A program made the position numbers and the translations under genes. The notes beneath the pieces were generated by a model. That model ran no database searches. It was not told the DNA's origin and saw only the letters and a program-made list of their open reading frames with translations. From the NCBI GenBank assembly GCA_947565635.1, contig CANOGU010000015.1, positions 1 to 51,341 of the forward strand: a DNA stretch of 51,341 nucleotides, in the 5' to 3' direction. Positions 6,105-44,970 of the stretch are shown piece by piece (the first letter of the stretch is position 1; each line of letters starts with the position of its first letter). The DNA is from an uncultured Lactobacillus sp. (GTDB lineage Bacteria; Bacillota; Bacilli; Lactobacillales; Lactobacillaceae).

Positions 6105-7487
6105 ATGAAAACAAGCAGGCTTTCTTTTTTAGCCCTTTTTTTTAGTTTGATTTTTATTTTTGAATCGGGATTTCTTGTTATTGGACATCGCGGCAATCCT
6201 AGCAAATATCCTGAAGAAACCATTCAAAGTGATGACTCAGCTTTTGACGATGGAGCGGACTATGTAGAACTAGACCTGCACGTTTCTAAAGATAATACTT
6301 TAGTTGTTTCTCATGATCGCGACTTAAGCCGAGTTGTTGGATCATCGGTTATTGTATCACAAAACAATTTCTCCTATTTAAACACCTTAAAACAAGCTAA
6401 TGGTGAATCAATTATCTCCTTAGATCAGTTATTTAACTACTATAAAGATAAACCTAAGACTAAGTTTCTTATTGAAACAAAAAAGACCAAACATAACAGC
6501 CCTAAAAATATGGAAGAGCTCCTTGCCGCAAGTATCAAAAAATATCATATGCAAGATCGAGTTATGATTCACAGTTTTTCTGCTTCTAGTCTAAAAACTA
6601 TGAATGAACTTTTACCAGATGTTCCAAGAATTTTTATTGTAGGATCATTAAAAAGAATTAACTTTGAGGTATTGAGTTATGTCAACGGTATTAATATCTC
6701 CTCTGATCTAATTACTCAAAATCCTAAACTTATTAGTCAACTTCATGCCTTGCATCAAAAAGTTTTTGTCTGGGCAGAAATGAATGAATCACCCAAACTC
6801 TGGAATTGGCTAATTAATAATGACATTGATGCTGTTGTAACTAACTTCCCAGCCCTAGGATACAAGTATAAGCTAGCCAAAAGTGGTACTAAGAAATATG
6901 ACGTCAACAAAGATGGGATGTACTTTGGTCGTCTTCCAATTACTATTAGTGAAAATCCATATCTAAGCGTCAAAACTTCAAAAGAGCTCAAATTCTTAGA
7001 ACCAGTTCATGTTTCTTCAGCTGTTATTACTTCTGAGCAAACATTCTATCAAATTGGTGATAAAGAATTTGTACCTGCAGACTTAGTTAGTTTAGACTTA
7101 CAACCTGAATGGATTTTACCTTATTGGAATTTAAGTATTATTAATCCTACTCAAAATCCAATTTTCACTTATAATAAACCTGATAAGCAATCTGGTAAAA
7201 AAGGTCAGCTTTTACCACGAAAGCACTATCGAATTTTGGGTGTAAGTGGGGGTGTTAAGGAATTATGGCTTTTGACTGATAATGGCTGGATTAAGTCATC
7301 AAAGATTCTGTACTATGGCTTATTTGACAAAAAATCATTTGCCTACAAGAACTATAAGCGACTTGATCCCGCCTATCGTCAAACAAATGTCGCCCTGTTT
7401 CCTTACTTACCCGTAGAAAAAGTTCCGATTAAAAGTTTTTGGTCGACTTATTCTGATGTAAATGCTGTAATATTTAATCAGAGATAA
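6105..7487 (+). CDS. membrane-targeted glycerophosphodiester phosphodiesterase with extra C-terminal region
   Basis: The 460-residue protein opens with a short basic stretch and a hydrophobic segment (residues 8-28) acting as signal or anchor. A GDPD domain follows: GHRGN-x4-PEET near 27-38, the metal-binding ELDLHVSKD near 56-64, and VVSHDRDLSRVV. Such enzymes cleave glycerophosphodiesters to glycerol-3-phosphate and an alcohol; a surface enzyme could act on lipid or lipoteichoic-acid debris. From about residue 265 to the end lies a beta-rich, tyrosine- and tryptophan-containing region that is not part of the catalytic fold. It looks like a wall-binding or SH3-like module, but I cannot assign it. 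GAGG lies just before the ATG. Confidence 0.85.
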   Translation: MKTSRLSFLALFFSLIFIFESGFLVIGHRGNPSKYPEETIQSDDSAFDDGADYVELDLHVSKDNTLVVSHDRDLSRVVGSSVIVSQNNFSYLNTLKQANGESIISLDQLFNYYKDKPKTKFLIETKKTKHNSPKNMEELLAASIKKYHMQDRVMIHSFSASSLKTMNELLPDVPRIFIVGSLKRINFEVLSYVNGINISSDLITQNPKLISQLHALHQKVFVWAEMNESPKLWNWLINNDIDAVVTNFPALGYKYKLAKSGTKKYDVNKDGMYFGRLPITISENPYLSVKTSKELKFLEPVHVSSAVITSEQTFYQIGDKEFVPADLVSLDLQPEWILPYWNLSIINPTQNPIFTYNKPDKQSGKKGQLLPRKHYRILGVSGGVKELWLLTDNGWIKSSKILYYGLFDKKSFAYKNYKRLDPAYRQTNVALFPYLPVEKVPIKSFWSTYSDVNAVIFNQR

Positions 7488-7506: not shown

Positions 7507-8904
7507 ATGGAAGAACTAGATTACAAAAAATTAGCTCAAGAAAAAAAGGATGCTATTTTAAATGATTTAAAAGAATTAATCGCAATTGATTCTTCTGAAG
7601 ATTTAAACAATACCAGTAAAGAATACCCAGTTGGTCCTGGCCCAGTTAAAGCAATGAAGAAGTTTTTATCTTTTGCTAAACGCGATGGTTTCGACACTGA
7701 AAATTTTGATAACTATGCAGGTCGAATCAATATGGGTTCTGGTGACAAACGTGTAGGTATTATTGGACATATGGATGTTGTTCCTGCTGGCGAAGGCTGG
7801 AAGACTGATCCATTTAAGATGACTATTAAAGATGGAAAAATCTATGGTCGTGGTAGTGCTGATGATAAAGGACCTTCTTTAGCTGCTTATTATGGAATGC
7901 TTATCTTAAAGGAACATGGATTTAAGCCTAAAAAGAAGATTGATTTTGTCCTTGGAACTAATGAAGAAACTAATTGGGTAGGAATTGATTACTACTTGAA
8001 GCATCAACCAGCTCCTGACATTGCCTTTTCACCTGATGCAGAATTTCCAATTATCAACGGTGAACAAGGTATTGTTACCTTGAAGCTTGACTTCAAATTT
8101 GATCCAAGCCAAGGTAACGTTAAGCTTTGGACATTCCAATCAGGTATTGCTACTAATGTCATCCCTCAAACTGCTCATGCTCAACTTGAAGGCGACATTG
8201 ACGGTATTAAAGAAAAATTTGACCTATTCCTTAAAGAACATAAACTTGAAGGAAAGGCAGAAATGCTTAGTGGTCGTCTATCATTAACTTTAACTGGTCA
8301 TGGTGCTCACGCTTCAGCTCCAGAAACTGGTAGAAATGCTGCTACTTACCTTGCACTCTTCCTTGATAGCCTAAGTTTTGACGGTCAGGCAAAGAATTTC
8401 TTACATTTTCTTGCAACTGTTGAACACAAAGACTTTAATGGTAAGAAATTAGGTATCTTCCACCACGATGATTTAATGGGCGATTTAACTAGCTCACCAA
8501 GTATGTTTAACTTTGAAGGTCAAAATGCATACCTACTAAACAATGTTCGCTACCCACAAGGTATTGAACCAGAAGAAATGGTCAAAAACATTAACGAAAA
8601 ATTTGGTGACATCTTAGACGCTAGAGTTGAAGGTTCAGCAGAAGCTCCTCACTACGTTCCTGAAGACGATCCAATCGTTAAGACCCTTCTTTCAGTTTAT
8701 GAAAAGCAAACTGGTAAGAAAGGTCACGAAGTTATTATTGGCGGTGGTACATACGGCCGTTTATTTAAACATGGTGTAGCTTTTGGTGCTCAACCAGAAG
8801 GTGCCCCACTTGTTATGCACCAACCAAATGAATATATGAAAGTTGATGATTTGATCAATTCAATTGCTATTTACGCCGAAGCAATCTATGAATTAACTAA
8901 GTAA
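7507..8904 (+). CDS. pepV: dipeptidase PepV
   Basis: The 465-residue M20 metallopeptidase has [12 protein letters not shown] near residues 87-98 (zinc ligand His and catalytic Asp), [11 protein letters not shown] near 114-124 (bridging Asp) and GTNEETNW near 152-159 (catalytic Glu and zinc ligand). The last zinc-ligand His lies in the MHQPNE-like end. The length matches lactobacillar PepV, a cytosolic enzyme that releases amino acids from dipeptides after oligopeptide uptake. It has an AAAGGAG site before ATG 7507 and lies 19 bases after the phosphodiesterase. A strong terminator follows. Confidence 0.96.
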
Positions 8905-37257: not shown

Positions 37258-39834
37258 TCAGTCCTTATCTTTCAATTCCTGCTGCCACTGCGCTACCAGT
37301 TCCATTACTTGAAGTGGAGTCTTATCAGCAAGATATACATTTTGAATATCATCTAAAACATCTTTTTCATCATCTGAAATTGCTGGAGCACCTTCACTTT
37401 CTTCAGGTACAAATAAATCAAGTTGTTCACTAGCTGGTTGAAGTTCTCCTGCACCTTGTTTTTCTAATCGTTTAAGCATTGTAGTTGCTTCACGCAAAAC
37501 CTTGTGTGGCAATCCTGCTAATTGAGCAACATGAATACCATACGATTGATCAGCAGGTCCTGGAAGAATCTTGTGTAAGAAAATTAACTTTCCATTTTCT
37601 TCAGTAGCGCCAACATGAATGTTCTTTAGATGTTTTAAAGTCTGATCAAGATCAGTCAATTCATGGTAGTGAGTCGCAAAGAGAGTTTTAGCACCAACTT
37701 TATCATGCAGATACTTCACAATTGCGCCAGCTAACGCCATTCCATCATAAGTAGCTGTACCTCGTCCAATTTCATCAAATAATACTAAAGAACGCTTAGT
37801 TGCATGCTGCAAAGCATCGTTTGCTTCACTCATTTCTACCATAAAAGTACTCTGACCTGAAATTAAATCATCAGCCGCACCAATACGAGTGAAAATTTGA
37901 TCAAAAATCGGCAAAGTCGCACTATCTGCTGGTACAAAACAACCAATCTGCGCCATAATTGCGATCAATGCCATTTGACGCATATAAGTAGACTTACCGG
38001 ACATGTTTGGACCAGTAATCAAGAAAATATCAGTATCTTGATCCATCTTAATATCATTCGGAATATAACTACCAGCAGCCATGACTTGTTCAACTACAGG
38101 GTGGCGACCGTTAACCGCATTAATTTCTTGTTTATCTGTCGCAAAGCTAGGACGCACGTAGTTATTTTGTTCACTTATAGTCGCAAAGTTAGTTAAAACG
38201 TCTAAACTTGCAATTTGCTTGGCTAACTTCTGCAAGGCTGGAATATACTTTTTAACATCTTCCCTTAGTTTTACAAATAAGTCGTACTCTAAACCAGTAG
38301 ACTTAGCTTCAGCTTCTAAAATCAATGATTCATGTTCTTTTAAGTCAGGCGTGATATAACGTTCTGCATTAGTTAATGTTTGCTTTCTAGTATAGCGATC
38401 AGTTGGCACCTTATCTTTATTTGAATTTGTAACTTCAATATAGTAACCAAAGACCTTGTTATAGCCAACCTTTAAGTTATTAATTCCCGTCACTTCACGT
38501 TCATGGCTTTCCATTTCGGAAAGCCATTTTTTACCATTATTCATGGCATCACGATAGCGATCTAATTGATCCGAAACACCCTCTCTAATCAGACCACCTT
38601 CTGTAGTTGAAAGTGGTGGATTATCCACAATCGTGTTAACAATTAAATCATGGATTCCCTTTAGTGGATCAATTTGCTGAGCAAAATTTTGTAGATGTGG
38701 ATTATCTGTTTCAAGTAAAGAATCCAAAATATTAGGAATCGCAGCTAAAGAATGCGCTAATTGCAGCATTTCACGTGCATTAACCGATCCAAAGGCAATT
38801 CGGCCTGTTAATCTTTCTAAGTCATACACACCTTTTAAGCTGTCGATAACTTTTTCACGGGTAAAATAGTCATCAAGTAGCGCTTGAACCATTTCCTGCC
38901 GGCGTGTAATTTCAGAAACTGATAAAAGTGGACGTTCAATCCAAGACTTAAGAAGTCTACCTCCCATAGCTGTGCTAGTCTTATCTAAGAGCCAGAATAA
39001 AGACCCCATCTTCTTAGCGGTCTTAGCTGATTTGATTAATTCTAAGTTTGTTTGCACAGTATGAGACATTTGCAAATATTGCGTCGGCTCATAGCTTTGA
39101 GCTACCTGTAAGTGGGCTAAGCTGCGCTTTTGCGTTGAGAGCAAGTAGGCTACTAATTGCTTAGTTGCCTTAATTTCTGCGTCATCAGTTAAGTTTTGCG
39201 CTACATAAGAGATTTCTGCATGCTCACCTTCTACTTCAACTGGTTCAGAAACAGTAATGTTAGCTTTTTTTAAAAAGTCCTTGTTTGCCTCTGTTAAATG
39301 TCCGTTATATACAACTTCTCTTGTCTGAAGCGACAATAACTCGTTTGCTACTCCTTCAAAGTCAGCTAAGTGTGTGGAAAAAGTTTCCCCAGTGGATAAG
39401 TCACTGTAGGCTAAACCAAAGCCAGAATTTGTAGAAATAACAGAAGTTAAATAGTTGCTGTCTTTTGCTTGATCTGGCCGCTCTTGCATCATGGTACCTG
39501 GCGTAATTAATTGAATAATTCCGCGCTTAACCATCCCTTTAGCTTTTTTGGGGTCTTCCAGTTGTTCACAAAGCGCTACTTTATATCCCTTTTCTACTAA
39601 AGTATTGACGTAAGTATCCACAGCTAGATGAGGCACGCCTGCCATTGGAATTGGATTTTTAGTTTTATTTGAACGATGAGTTAGAGTTAATTCTAGAATT
39701 TGTGCACCTTTGATTGCATCATCTTCAAATAATTCATAGAAATCACCCACACGATAAAACAAAAACGCATCGGGATATTGTTCCTTAATTTCGTAATATT
39801 GCTTCATCATTGGTGTCGTATCTTTTTTTGCCAT
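37258..39834 (-). CDS. mutS: DNA mismatch recognition protein MutS
   Basis: The 858-residue protein has the N-terminal mismatch-binding domain with the conserved [15 protein letters not shown] (Phe-x-Glu region, near residues 25-40). The connector, lever and clamp domains follow, then the ATPase with Walker [15 protein letters not shown] near 608, and Walker [17 protein letters not shown]. The helix-turn-helix dimerisation region is at the end. It recognises mispairs and recruits MutL. It is the first gene of mutS-mutL-ruvA-ruvB-yajC. Confidence 0.97.
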
Positions 39835-39914
39835 TCGTTACCAAATATCCTTTCTTCCAAAAACCTATGTTCTATTATAACGTAAAAACTGATAAAAAAT
39901 CTTAACTGTTAAAA

Positions 39915-39951
39915 TGCAAAAAATTCTCCATGCTGCTTGCATGAAGAATTT
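39915..39951 (-). terminator. terminator after the ABC exporter gene
   Basis: AAATTCTCCATGC (39921-39933) pairs with GCATGAAGAATTT (39939-39951) with one mismatch. A T run follows on the minus strand. Confidence 0.85.
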
Positions 39952-39975
39952 AATTACTTATTTCAAAACTTAATC

Positions 39976-41739
39976 TTACAGATATGCATCTTTCTGTAAG
40001 TCGTACATTTCTTTATATTTTGGATTAGTATGCAACAAATTAGTATGCGTATCAAACCCGCTAATTTTTCCACCATCTAAAAATAGCACTTTATCAGCAA
40101 ATCTAACTGCTGACAAGCGGTGAGTAACAAAGAAAATTGTCTTTTTATCATTTTCTTTCAAAAAGCGTTGATAAATTTCTGATTCACTTTTTGCATCTAA
40201 GGCTGCCGTTGGTTCATCTAAAAATTCAATCTTACCATCAGCATATAAGTCTCGTGCCAAAGCTACTTTTTGCCATTGACCACCTGACAAATCAGTTCCA
40301 TTTTCAAAATCCTTAGCCAGTATCGTATTCAGATTAAGATGGTCATTAGCTAGCAAATCACCCAATCCCGATGCTTTAAGAACATTATTTACCCTATCTT
40401 TATTGAATGAATATCCAGTAATCACGTTTTCTTTAAGAGTTAATTTAAAGCGAGAAAAGTCTTGAAAAGTAGCTGATAAATTTTTGTGTAAGTCAAAGAT
40501 ATTAATGTCTTTTAAATCATAGTTATCAACAGAAATTTTTCCATTAGTCGGATCATAAAAACGCATTAATAATTTTACCAAAGTAGACTTTCCCGACCCA
40601 TTTTCTCCAACAACTGCAATCTTTTCTCCACTTTTAACTGAGAAACTAACATTGTGCAAAACCTCAGTATCAGAGAATGGATAAGTGAAGGATAAATTCT
40701 TAACGTTAAGATTCTCGAAATCATCGGGGAAATCTTGTGTGCCATTTTCAAAATTATCTTGATACTCAAGAAAATTAAAGTATTTTTCAATCCATAATAA
40801 TGAATCGTATAACAAACTACTGTCTTCTACTACTCGAGCCATACTGGTAGAAATATAGCCAATTACTGAAACAAACATCAATAAGACGCCAACTTCTAAT
40901 GCACCTGTTCTTACTGAATTAGTAAACCAATAAAAACCATAGCCAAACACTCCGACAGTTAATACAACAAACAGTGAACTAGTCGCAAGTTGCTTTCTAC
41001 GAATTTGATTAACATCTTTTTTAGTTTGTTCAAATAAGCTTATATATTTTTCGATGATCTTTGGAAACATATTAAAAAGTCTAACTTCTTTAGCATCCCT
41101 GCGGTCAAGCAATAATCCACTATAGTAGTGTAAATATCTAGCATTCTTGCTTCTTTCAACCATTGTTTCAAATGATTGCTGCTGAATACGGTAATAAGAA
41201 ATACTCTGTGGCACCATTACAATTAACAAGAGCAATGCCAGCCACCAATTGTATCGTGCTAGATAGATTAGCATAAAAGCTAGCGTTAGAAACGATTGCA
41301 AAACTGATACACCAAAAACAATTAAATTAACTGGACGCCAGCTTGCATCATCTCTGAGCATTTGTAAATCGTCAAAATATTTGCTGTCATCAAAAATACT
41401 GATTGATTGTAAATCCTCAGATTTTTTCATTAAGCTAATATTGATAAAGCCTGTTAATTTATCAGTTAGAACTCCCTGAACCATTGTCGAAAGGGATGGT
41501 AAAAATTGTTGAAATGCCGTAGCTACAATCCAGACAATGATCATTTCCATAAATGGTGAATGATTAGTAACTTGATCAATTACCTTTTGCCCCGCTGCCA
41601 CAGCAAGTAGAGGAATTATAGCTTGAAGTGGTGCAAGTAATAAGACACACGTGGCAACTAAAGGAGCTGATTTAAAGAACAGATGATAGGTGCGAGTTAA
41701 TTCTTTGAAGTATTGGTTTAATTTTTTAACGTGATTCAT
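39976..41739 (-). CDS. ABC exporter (permease-ATPase fusion) of the 16-codon-ORF/Rgg locus
   Basis: The 587-residue half-transporter has an N-terminal membrane domain of about six helices (residues 25-310) with the intracellular loop DAKEVRLFNMF, typical of this exporter class. The ATPase has Walker A GENGSGKST (near 378-386), signature LSGGQWQKVALAR (near 484), Walker B IEFLDEPTAALD and H-loop VTHR. There is no N-terminal C39 peptidase domain, so it would not remove double-glycine leaders. Similar proteins export lantibiotics, other peptides or drugs. It starts 61 bases after the 16-codon ORF, behind AAGGAC, and ends at a terminator. Substrate is inferred from context only. Confidence 0.9.
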   Translation of the reverse strand: MNHVKKLNQYFKELTRTYHLFFKSAPLVATCVLLLAPLQAIIPLLAVAAGQKVIDQVTNHSPFMEMIIVWIVATAFQQFLPSLSTMVQGVLTDKLTGFINISLMKKSEDLQSISIFDDSKYFDDLQMLRDDASWRPVNLIVFGVSVLQSFLTLAFMLIYLARYNWWLALLLLIVMVPQSISYYRIQQQSFETMVERSKNARYLHYYSGLLLDRRDAKEVRLFNMFPKIIEKYISLFEQTKKDVNQIRRKQLATSSLFVVLTVGVFGYGFYWFTNSVRTGALEVGVLLMFVSVIGYISTSMARVVEDSSLLYDSLLWIEKYFNFLEYQDNFENGTQDFPDDFENLNVKNLSFTYPFSDTEVLHNVSFSVKSGEKIAVVGENGSGKSTLVKLLMRFYDPTNGKISVDNYDLKDINIFDLHKNLSATFQDFSRFKLTLKENVITGYSFNKDRVNNVLKASGLGDLLANDHLNLNTILAKDFENGTDLSGGQWQKVALARDLYADGKIEFLDEPTAALDAKSESEIYQRFLKENDKKTIFFVTHRLSAVRFADKVLFLDGGKISGFDTHTNLLHTNPKYKEMYDLQKDAYL

Positions 41740-41800
41740 TTTGTCCTTCTTGATGAACGGGATTCAACAAAATGAATTGTAACTATTCTCCGCTCATCTA

Positions 41801-41851
41801 TTATTTATTGTCTTGTAAATTTTGATGAGCATTTAATACTACTGTCGGCAT
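41801..41851 (-). CDS. candidate 16-residue peptide gene upstream of the ABC exporter
   Basis: The ORF starts at ATG 41851 and ends TAA at 41801; its product would be MPTVVLNAHQNLQDNK. It has the strongest ribosome binding site of the neighbourhood, AAGGAGG with 8 bases to the ATG, and lies about 30 bases after a TATAAT box. It has no signal peptide, no double-glycine leader, no Cys, Ser or Trp for ring formation, and one Thr. It could be an exported peptide (pheromone or antimicrobial precursor) or a non-exported leader peptide controlling the exporter gene by ribosome stalling. No homologue is recognised. Confidence 0.55.
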   Translation of the reverse strand: MPTVVLNAHQNLQDNK

Positions 41852-41884
41852 AATTTGATCCTCCTTATTTAATATTTTTATTAG

Positions 41885-41918
41885 ATTATACTATATAAAT
41901 CCATTTTTTTATTAATAA
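41885..41918 (-). promoter_or_regulatory. promoter and candidate operator of the 16-codon ORF and exporter
   Basis: On the minus strand TATAAT (41885-41890) is a perfect -10 box, but no -35 resembling TTGACA exists 16-18 bases upstream. A perfect 10-bp palindrome, TTATTAATAA (41909-41918), occupies that position. A promoter without a -35 box suggests an activator; the Rgg-type protein next door is the obvious candidate. This is inference from layout. Confidence 0.5.
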
Positions 41919-41953
41919 TGTGTTAATTAATATAGAATTTCCTATTTAAAGAA

Positions 41954-42193
41954 TTAGTTACTTTTTTTAGTATAATATTTTTTCCAATAGTAAATAGACA
42001 ATACAGTAAAAATAACTACACCGATTAATAAGATGTATTCCCCTTGTATTACCAAATACAGACAAAATAGAGTTACATAAGCACATACTAAAGCTTCGTA
42101 TAAAATTGGAATTCTTGGTCGAATAATATAATAGAGAATAAAACTCACGATTATTGATAGTATTATAAGATAAAATTGAAATTGGTTATTCAT
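41954..42193 (-). CDS. small three-helix membrane protein
   Basis: The 79-residue protein is almost wholly hydrophobic, with predicted helices near residues 6-24, 29-48 and 52-69 and a basic C-terminal tail (WKKYYTKKSN). I recognise no family. It lies between the regulator and the 16-codon ORF on the same strand, with its own promoter-like sequence upstream. Small membrane proteins in such places can be immunity proteins or export helpers, but nothing in the sequence proves either. The ribosome binding site is weak (GAATGAG). Confidence 0.7.
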   Translation of the reverse strand: MNNQFQFYLIILSIIVSFILYYIIRPRIPILYEALVCAYVTLFCLYLVIQGEYILLIGVVIFTVLSIYYWKKYYTKKSN

Positions 42194-42210
42194 ACGTAAC
42201 TCATTCCATT

Positions 42211-42238
42211 ATTGTAAAATATGAAAACTATATGTCAT
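42211..42238 (-). promoter_or_regulatory. promoter of the 79-residue membrane protein gene
   Basis: On the minus strand ATGACA (42233-42238) is spaced 16 bases from TACAAT (42211-42216), each one or two mismatches from consensus. It is placed just upstream of the gene starting at 42193. Confidence 0.45.
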
Positions 42239-42336
42239 GTTCCAATTCAAATCCATTAAATCTGATTATGAAAATGATTATATTTACAGGCAATTATTTT
42301 TTATATTTATCATTTTACTCACATCTTTAGTGCAAA

Positions 42337-42362
42337 ATAAAAAGTGTCTAAATTGACACCTT
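42337..42362 (-). terminator. terminator overlapping the end of the Rgg-type regulator gene
   Basis: AAAGTGTC (42341-42348) pairs with GACACCTT (42355-42362), including one wobble pair. A T-rich tail follows on the minus strand. The regulator's last codons form the hairpin, so it is insulated from the membrane-protein gene downstream. Confidence 0.7.
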
Positions 42363-43184
42363 TAAAATTTCAGAAATTTTATTTATATTATTGTTAGTAA
42401 AAAAGTCTAGGATATCCTGTATTTTTTTCTCATCGCCTTGAAAATATGCTCGATAAAAATTTTTCATTATTTTTCCAAAGCAATTTAATGGTTTTACTGG
42501 TAAATTGTCTAATAAAATGAATATATCTTCTACTAAGTCTAAATTTTGTGATGATGATCTAATCAATAGGGACAGATAATTAACCATTATTGAAGAGACT
42601 AAAATTTGCATCTCTCGTGGAAAGTTTTCAATATTAATATATTTTTTCAAAAGAGATGTTACTATTGGTTTCATTTCTTGATCTGACCATAAAGGAAGAC
42701 TGATTGAGAATAAACTAAGATTTTCTTTATTCCAATTTTCTGCTTTGAAAATTAGAGATTTAACATGTCTTTTTATTTCATTAGGTAAGGTATCCATACT
42801 TTCCTTTAAATTTGCCTTATTCAGAATAATCATCGATTTTAAAAGATCTTTAGTATAAGTATCTGTTTTAATATTTGGTATTTCTAATTCTAGTTTTTTA
42901 ACCTTATTCAAGTCTTGATCATAATATGCCTGGCTTAACTGCTCTCCCCAATATTCTTTGTCAATCCTATTTTCTTTAACCCCGCATTTTGTCAGAAATT
43001 CACTAATATCAACATCATGCATCTCTAAGATCTTAATTAAATCACTGGCATTAATCTCATGAATTCCTCGTTCAATTTTAGAATAATATGATTTTGTCAG
43101 AATAGGATACGCCATCTCAGTTTGAGATAATTCTAGATTTTTTCTAGTTTCTTTTAAAGCTTCGCCAATGGTCATCCCTGTCAT
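42348..43184 (-). CDS. Rgg/GadR/MutR-type helix-turn-helix regulator
   Basis: The 278-residue protein has an N-terminal XRE-type helix-turn-helix (residues 6-60: IGEALKETRKNLELSQTEMA, YSKIERG, LIKILEMHDVDISEFL). An all-helical 210-residue C-terminal region resembles the repeat domain of Rgg/MutR proteins, which bind short peptides in streptococci or activate bacteriocin operons. The start at 43184 has AAGAAAG upstream. A TATAAT box at 43229-43234 follows the groEL terminator, so it has its own promoter. The likely targets are the two promoters just downstream, at the membrane gene and the 16-codon ORF; this is inferred. Confidence 0.82.
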   Translation of the reverse strand: MTGMTIGEALKETRKNLELSQTEMAYPILTKSYYSKIERGIHEINASDLIKILEMHDVDISEFLTKCGVKENRIDKEYWGEQLSQAYYDQDLNKVKKLELEIPNIKTDTYTKDLLKSMIILNKANLKESMDTLPNEIKRHVKSLIFKAENWNKENLSLFSISLPLWSDQEMKPIVTSLLKKYINIENFPREMQILVSSIMVNYLSLLIRSSSQNLDLVEDIFILLDNLPVKPLNCFGKIMKNFYRAYFQGDEKKIQDILDFFTNNNINKISEILKVSI

Positions 43185-43246
43185 CTTCTTTCTTAATGAA
43201 AAATTACAGTTTAATTTTTTATTAAGATATTATACTCTACTATACA

Positions 43247-43284
43247 AAAACACTCCATGATCATTAAAAATCATGGAGTGTTTT
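43247..43284 (-). terminator. terminator after groEL
   Basis: CACTCCATGA (43251-43260) and TCATGGAGTG (43271-43280) form a perfect stem, flanked by AAAA and TTTT. Confidence 0.9.
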
Positions 43285-43323
43285 ATCAATCTATTAAATT
43301 AGTAAACGTAATTAGTTTCTAAA

Positions 43324-44970
<1,647 letters not shown>

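Follow-up and report, generated by a model that had tools for sequence, protein, structure and literature searches.

What is the role of a 16-codon open reading frame (ORF) that lies between the gene for an Rgg-type regulator and the gene for an ATP-binding cassette (ABC) exporter? We asked this of a stretch of 51,341 nucleotides (nt) from an uncultured Lactobacillus sp. (contig CANOGU010000015.1 of GenBank assembly GCA_947565635.1), hereafter the window, which is a contig of an incomplete genome (79.6% complete). An earlier reading of the bare sequence, the original prediction, had placed four same-strand genes between groESL and mutSL, namely an Rgg/MutR-type regulator, a 79-residue membrane protein with three helices, a 16-codon ORF with a near-perfect ribosome binding site and a fused ABC exporter, and had seen in them either a minimal, unmodified peptide export and sensing system or an efflux operon with a regulatory leader peptide, as in bmrB-bmrCD. 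The arrangement was borne out, as was the ribosome binding site: all four parts are on the minus strand between groESL and mutSL, with mutS 3' of the exporter, as follows (lengths in amino acids, aa).

43184-42348, minus strand: rgg, encoding an Rgg-type regulator of 278 aa, accessory to the leader-exporter unit
42193-41954, minus strand: gene for a membrane protein of 79 aa, accessory, seen only alongside rgg
41866-41860, minus strand: AAGGAGG, the Shine-Dalgarno sequence of the 16-codon ORF, read from the sequence
41851-41801, minus strand: the 16-codon leader ORF, MPTVVLNAHQNLQDNK, predicted ribosome-stall site
41739-39976, minus strand: gene for an ABC half-exporter of 587 aa, with membrane domain and ATP-binding domain in one protein; start codon at 41739-41737

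Comparison of related loci, RNA folding and ribosome modelling indicate that the 16-codon ORF very probably encodes the leader peptide of a translational attenuator of the ermC type, which controls the ABC exporter. Resistance genes such as erm supply the best-known translational attenuators with a leader peptide, and in ermC the leader RNA has arms that pair as 1:2 and 3:4 in the OFF state and as 2:3 in the ON state. Passages of two papers describe how a stalled ribosome rearranges the ermC mRNA and exposes the downstream start site (PMC5118997), and how a stem-loop can shield the ribosome site downstream when the leader is translated efficiently (PMC4191407).

The association of the parts was examined in 75 genomes of the genus Lactobacillus (genomes are numbered G and loci L below). 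Relatives of the exporter at no less than 52% identity occur in 22 of these, 14 of them full length without a reported stop, one (G071) full length with a TAG reported inside, and seven partial or broken. The 16-codon ORF accompanies 11 of the 12 exporters of at least 85% identity, starting 108-115 nt upstream of the exporter start, and was not seen at any of the ten exporter relatives of 52-74% identity (leaving aside partial loci of the L022 type). With the leader DNA as query, exactly 11 of the 75 genomes returned a strong match (E 7e-32 or better), in every case immediately 5' of the exporter; at E 0.01 there were matches in 26 genomes, those beyond the 11 being short (19-41 bases) and weak. 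When a degenerate DNA pattern for the ORF was run against a species-level genome collection, which may omit records near the window's genome, 18 loci were found, five of them in Lactobacillus and all five with the exporter (L. taiwanensis DSM 21401, L. hominis DSM 23910, Candidatus L. pullistercoris and two uncultured Lactobacillus). The other 13 were taken as chance, 12 being without a match to the three window proteins and one having a 31% ABC match only.

The regulator behaves differently. At the 11 leader-bearing loci, rgg and the gene for the 79-aa protein are present in four (window, G071, G024 and G060, the rgg match in G060 being split over two frames) and absent from six, and in G059 the contig ends; the 79-aa protein occurs in four of the 75 genomes, each time with rgg. 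The co-conservation of all four parts that the original prediction had proposed as a check was thus not found. Because the leader adjoins the exporter in all 11 loci and the regulator is there in four, the conserved unit, judged from gene neighbourhoods, is the leader ORF plus the exporter, and the regulator is accessory. The rgg and 79-aa genes would form a separate module that joins the leader-exporter unit in some species.

These counts bear on the first of the two earlier explanations, in which the peptide of the 16-codon ORF would be secreted by the exporter and signal through the Rgg regulator. Receptors of the Rgg/RopB type pair with short peptides, and a leaderless peptide of L. reuteri induces an ABC transporter gene, according to passages of PMC10518010; the ORF here also has a strong Shine-Dalgarno sequence (AGGAGG or AAGGAGG in all 11 leaders but that of pullistercoris, which has AAGGAAG) and a constant length, being 16 codons in 11/11 with no indel 5' of the stop codon. 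However, six of the 11 loci have the ORF and exporter without the constant Rgg partner that characterises Rgg systems with short hydrophobic peptides (SHP) or leaderless communication peptides (LCP). The peptide is hydrophilic (mean hydropathy -0.67) and, judged on composition only, is not of the aliphatic or aromatic kind expected of an SHP or LCP. It also changes more than the exporter does, with a mean proportion of non-synonymous differences (pN) of 0.17 and of synonymous differences (pS) of 0.28 in nine leaders, compared with a pN of 0.046 and a pS of 0.42 in the exporter. Nor would secretion account for the conserved base pairing predicted at the exporter start, described below. The invariant residues are Met1, Val4-Val5, Ala8-His9-Gln10 and Gln13, of which residues 8-10 lie within an RNA arm (arm 1 below). 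Since the length is constant, the residues vary and the conserved core is partly an RNA arm, the traits of the ORF speak more for a leader peptide whose codons double as an RNA arm than for a secreted signal. We therefore rejected the pheromone reading of the ORF, for which we see very little likelihood, and the minimal peptide export and sensing system of the original prediction is not supported.

How the leader might act on the exporter is suggested by the RNA between them. The spacer from the leader ORF to the exporter is 61 nt in the window, and folding and ribosome modelling predict that ORF and spacer form a four-arm RNA switch; its arms, with arm 3b as a separate entry, are listed with the probable promoter element of the leader transcript.

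41890-41885, minus strand: TATAAT, the likely -10 box of the leader transcript, identical in 11/11 homologous leaders
41831-41824, minus strand: arm 1, TGCTCATC, codons 7-10 of the leader ORF; pairs with arm 2 when OFF (helix 1, 97.5% of cells paired)
41798-41790, minus strand: arm 2, GATGAGCGG, directly 3' of the leader stop; partner of arm 1 (OFF) or arm 3b (ON)
41777-41766, minus strand: arm 3, ATTCATTTTGTT; pairs with arm 4 and so hides the exporter start codon when OFF (helix 2, 98.3% of cells paired)
41760-41752, minus strand: arm 3b, CCGTTCATC; pairs with arm 2 when ON (100% of cells paired in 10 distinct leaders)
41745-41734, minus strand: arm 4, GACAAAATGAAT, which spans the exporter start codon

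The proposed course of events is as follows. The leader would be transcribed from its own promoter just upstream, as the conserved -10 box suggests. In the free mRNA, or with a ribosome near the leader stop, arm 3 is computed to pair with arm 4 and bury the exporter start codon, and the pairing of arm 1 with arm 2 to keep arm 2 off arm 3b. A ribosome stalled with its peptidyl site (P-site) anywhere from about codon 3-4 to codon 12-13 would, in the computation, cover arm 1, upon which arm 2 would pair with arm 3b, arm 3 would be held within the hairpin and the exporter start site would open. By analogy with ermC and BmrCD, the stall is likely caused by an antibiotic that targets the ribosome, or by a comparable small molecule, in concert with the nascent chain, and the exporter would likely remove the stalling compound or a related one. 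Stalling within the leader is itself inferred; the invariant Val-Val at codons 4-5 would be a plausible arrest point.

The folding predictions are consistent with this course. The minimum free energy structure of the free RNA is the OFF state (1:2 plus 3:4) in eight of the nine leaders folded, the window included, and the folding z of the nine ranges from -2.0 to -4.6 against shuffles. The stalled ribosome was modelled as a 30-nt footprint. In the free RNA the predicted probability that the exporter start codon is unpaired is 0.00-0.01 in nine of 11 leaders, 0.23 in G014 (L039) and 0.42 in G021 (L037); a P-site at codons 5-8 gives 0.23-0.91 in nine of 11 and 0.43 in G021, and no leader exceeds 0.00 once the P-site has reached codon 15. 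The cost of opening the start site falls in the window from 5.2 kcal free to about 1 kcal stalled, and a mid-ORF stall cuts it from 5.2-9.7 to 0.8-3.0 kcal in eight of 11 leaders; for these costs, footprints of 24 and 36 nt did not alter the picture.

A ribosome at codon 16 has the reverse effect, and this result bears on a simpler explanation, namely that the leader feeds ribosomes to the exporter by reinitiation and the hairpins block independent starts, so that translation is coupled with no sensing of a ligand. The 61-nt spacer and the hidden start codon would also tie exporter translation to events in the leader. Coupling nevertheless appears highly improbable to us, as the model has a ribosome at codon 16 mask arm 2 and raise the cost of opening the start site (to 7.7-11.9 kcal in 11/11 with the 30-nt footprint, 6.2-11.9 kcal with the 24- and 36-nt footprints), the opposite of what coupling predicts, and the ON hairpin, paired in 11/11 leaders, would have no role. 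Attenuation of transcription was also considered and was rejected, as the scan showed no terminator-like site on the minus strand between 41851 and 41739, that is, between leader and exporter; helix 3:4 enters the coding sequence without a U-run. The second explanation of the original prediction, an efflux operon with a regulatory leader peptide as in bmrB-bmrCD, therefore holds in kind, but the level of control that it implied does not, since the predicted control here is of translation.

The switch could also operate as described with a stall signal that is a nutrient or the general state of the cell, e.g., a shortage of charged tRNA or slow translation. Classical amino-acid attenuators carry a run of one amino acid, whereas the leader here is without any single-amino-acid run and its target is an exporter and not a biosynthetic gene. 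In favour of such a signal, stalls anywhere from about codon 4 to codon 12 would switch the exporter ON with no need for an exact arrest site, and rare codons in bmrB influence its attenuation decision, according to PMC4191407. We regard a nutrient or general signal as improbable, and prefer stalling by a ribosome-targeting compound.

Conservation of the arms was compared with shuffled and slid controls. A strict test, which demanded 11 pairs in the helix over the start codon, nine in the alternative helix and seven in the helix of the ORF with its 5' arm, was passed by 10 of 11 leaders (G021 fails) and by none of 6000 dinucleotide shuffles. A looser test for a switch (free probability of 0.05 or less and gain of 0.3 or more, with shuffles made from four leaders) was passed by seven of 11 leaders, by four of 800 shuffles and by one of 79 other genes from the window and the fetched loci. 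Across the 10 distinct leaders the OFF helices have standard pairs in 97.8% of cells, against 40-55% with slid partners, and the ON pairing in 100%, against 25-50%. Spacer columns vary less within the arms (5/32) than elsewhere (9/18; Fisher p 0.019), and in the helix of arms 3 and 4 one pair is changed on both sides, from A-U to U-A, in three leaders.

Several points weigh against the attenuator. The entire case for the switch is computational, the criteria of both the strict and the looser test were chosen after the fold was known, and the 11 leaders are closely related, so that counts among them are not independent. Covariation is thin: one OFF pair has both sides changed, the OFF covariation measures were matched by 35-465 of 500 shuffles (35 of 500 for the covariation score) and those of the ON pairing by 500 of 500. 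Individual leaders also depart from the scheme. In G021 the free RNA is already in the hairpin of arms 2 and 3b, arm 1 has two mismatches and the opening cost barely moves (4.2 to 4.1-4.8 kcal); the cost also changes little in G014 (4.6 to 4.0-5.0 kcal), and in G034 (L036) it falls only from 7.0 to 4.3-5.5 kcal. In the hominis leader (L040) the start-codon probability is only 0.05-0.07 with the P-site at codons 5-8, though the opening cost nonetheless drops from 9.7 to about 2.9 kcal. None of the leaders has a stall motif that we could match to a known one, and one of the 12 close exporter orthologues (G023) has no leader, a FecR-like gene taking its place. Finally, six short ORFs of distant relatives were folded as candidates for recurrence of the switch, mostly with no clear result: stalling opens the start codon in L083 and closes its Shine-Dalgarno sequence, the start codon opens at the last codon only in L084, and no clear switch is present in the remaining four.

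The window copy itself has two peculiarities at 41761-41745, an extra C beside arm 3b and AAGAAGG before the exporter start where relatives have AAGGAGG or GAGGAGG, which may weaken translation of the exporter.

Among known systems, the locus shares with ermC and its leader ErmCL a short leader ORF just upstream, a predicted hidden start site and a predicted stall-driven alternative helix, but the target here is an ABC exporter and not an rRNA (Erm) methylase, so that the locus is not an erm operon. The target recalls bmrB of Bacillus subtilis, which, according to passages of PMC4191407, controls the ABC genes bmrCD after exposure to ribosome-targeting antibiotics by way of a transcription terminator, and which likewise is a leader peptide with alternative stem-loops before ABC exporter genes. 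Yet the intrinsic terminator of bmrB lies inside its own coding region, whereas here the start codon itself is hidden and there is no terminator-like site, and bmrCD are two genes where the window has one half-transporter. By analogy, the present leader is predicted to combine the mechanism of ermC with a BmrCD-like target. Streptococcal msrDL-msrD is a further parallel as a very short stalling leader (stalling being predicted here), since MsrDL (MYLIFM) stalls with macrolide according to a passage of PMC10314930; it differs in acting by transcriptional attenuation and in that msrD encodes an ABC-F translation factor, not an exporter. RopB with SIP, an 8-residue leaderless peptide (passages of PMC6565748), and other LCP systems such as the L. 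reuteri example in passages of PMC10518010 likewise group a short ORF and an ABC transporter with a regulator of the Rgg family, but the 16-codon ORF here is untied to the regulator and belongs to a predicted RNA switch.

In the literature library searched, no earlier report of this leader was found. If several lactobacilli do carry such an attenuator in front of a membrane exporter, between groEL and mutS, it would be a clue to a ribosome-targeting compound that they encounter and to the exporter's substrate. A wider lesson is that the proximity of a short ORF to an Rgg gene and an exporter does not in itself make it a pheromone. A broader reading would put two layers of control on the exporter, an Rgg/short-peptide quorum circuit and the ribosome-stalling switch, with one or both present according to species, and would have the switch sense a natural product of neighbours or the exporter's own substrate, not a clinical drug. 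We consider it unlikely; if true, the leader would be a genetically encoded sensor of a ribosome-targeting metabolite.

Three related Rgg loci without the 16-codon leader have ORFs of 7-10 codons with a Shine-Dalgarno sequence between rgg and a FecR-like gene or its remnant; positions are for loci oriented so that the exporter reads on the plus strand.

L042 (G023), about 7037-7060, plus strand exporter: ORF MYPLFPF with Shine-Dalgarno sequence
L048 (G003), about 7851-7883, plus strand exporter: ORF MWEWEFPVLP with Shine-Dalgarno sequence
L049 (G016), about 7737-7760, plus strand exporter: ORF MDPWYPL with Shine-Dalgarno sequence

By sequence, these three resemble the RopB/SIP class of leaderless communication peptides as described in passages of PMC10518010 and PMC6565748. 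No comparable ORF of 7-10 codons with a Shine-Dalgarno sequence was found beside the rgg of the window or of its three relatives.

The FecR-like gene recurs among the more distant relatives (24 loci, L074-L097), where it encodes about 215-240 aa and precedes the exporter in five, with a fragment in one. It is present in seven of 397 family genomes and this exporter adjoins it in six of the seven. The protein lies upstream of the exporter at L076, L078, L080, L085, L090 and L042 and often ends in a motif like WVSPxxW; of two copies tested, one matched Pfam FecR weakly (E 0.031, under the cut-off). Homology of the 16-codon ORF to the N-terminus of this gene (G023 and distant relatives) was considered and found no support: two of 35 peptide pairs scored high (equalled by 2/300 and 8/300 shuffles), not many given 35 trials, and alignment of the leader with the G023 intergenic DNA was no better than with shuffles (score 38, shuffle mean 43.5).

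Leader and exporter of the window appear to have different histories. The exporter is closest to those of G071, G021, G034, G018 and G014 (pS 0.17-0.32), while the leader best matches G024 (98% DNA identity) and G060 (96%), with an identical ORF, although the exporter pS to these two is 0.56; the G071 leader has 92% DNA identity to that of the window. The window rgg shares 96% identity with the G071 gene and 94% with the G024 gene, and the 79-aa protein is 96-99% identical to the G071, G024 and G060 copies. A mosaic boundary lies near the exporter start (about 41715-41740 and upstream), the leader and first exporter codons matching G024/G060 and the exporter body another lineage. Because leader and exporter body have different closest relatives, it looks as though species have exchanged the leader and the first part of the exporter gene, if not more.

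The family assignments of the original prediction largely stood. The rgg product matches NCBIfam TIGR01716 (Rgg/GadR/MutR C-terminal) at E 1.4e-12 and 47.7 bits (cut-off 36.9), and HTH_3 and HTH_19 also exceed their cut-offs, whereas Pfam Rgg_C reaches 23.2, under its cut-off of 27; with a helix-turn-helix and an Rgg C-terminal domain over a curated cut-off, the regulator is by sequence a member of the Rgg/GadR/MutR family. The 79-aa protein has the predicted length and hydrophobicity, but its overlapping hydrophobic stretches (2-32 and 27-72 in a hydropathy scan) leave room for two or three helices, and no Pfam or NCBIfam match is above curated cut-off. The fused exporter was as described, with GENGSGKST at 378, LSGGQ at 484 and hydrophobic segments beginning at residue 18; ABC_tran alone exceeds its Pfam cut-off, none of the 25 NCBIfam models shown reaches its own, and Pfam found no N-terminal C39 peptidase domain of the kind that defines peptidase-containing (C39) bacteriocin exporters. 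No Rfam family reaches its gathering score in the window, and an anti-phage library gave partial ATPase and HTH matches only against the locus.

Of the separate promoters and internal terminator that had been predicted, the terminator was supported by a hairpin after rgg, and promoters by the conserved TATAAT, but the promoter scan was not above chance (24 matches found against 21.6 expected) and no good -35 box is seen in the window for the TATAAT. Terminator-like sites are more frequent than expected in 39800-43400 (6 against 1.2), and the terminator scan placed two of them at gene ends.

42363-42340, minus strand: terminator-like hairpin ending rgg, with a similar one at the end of the related rgg of L049, L052 and L042
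39951-39921, minus strand: terminator-like hairpin 3' of the exporter

In six further Lactobacillus genomes (G008, G027, G019, G017, G035 and G028, at L021 and L023-L027) the exporter looks broken or incomplete and may be dispensable. A second Rgg-type gene, 24-32% identical, lies 3' of the exporter at L038, L041, L043, L044 and L070, the place that mutS occupies in the window.

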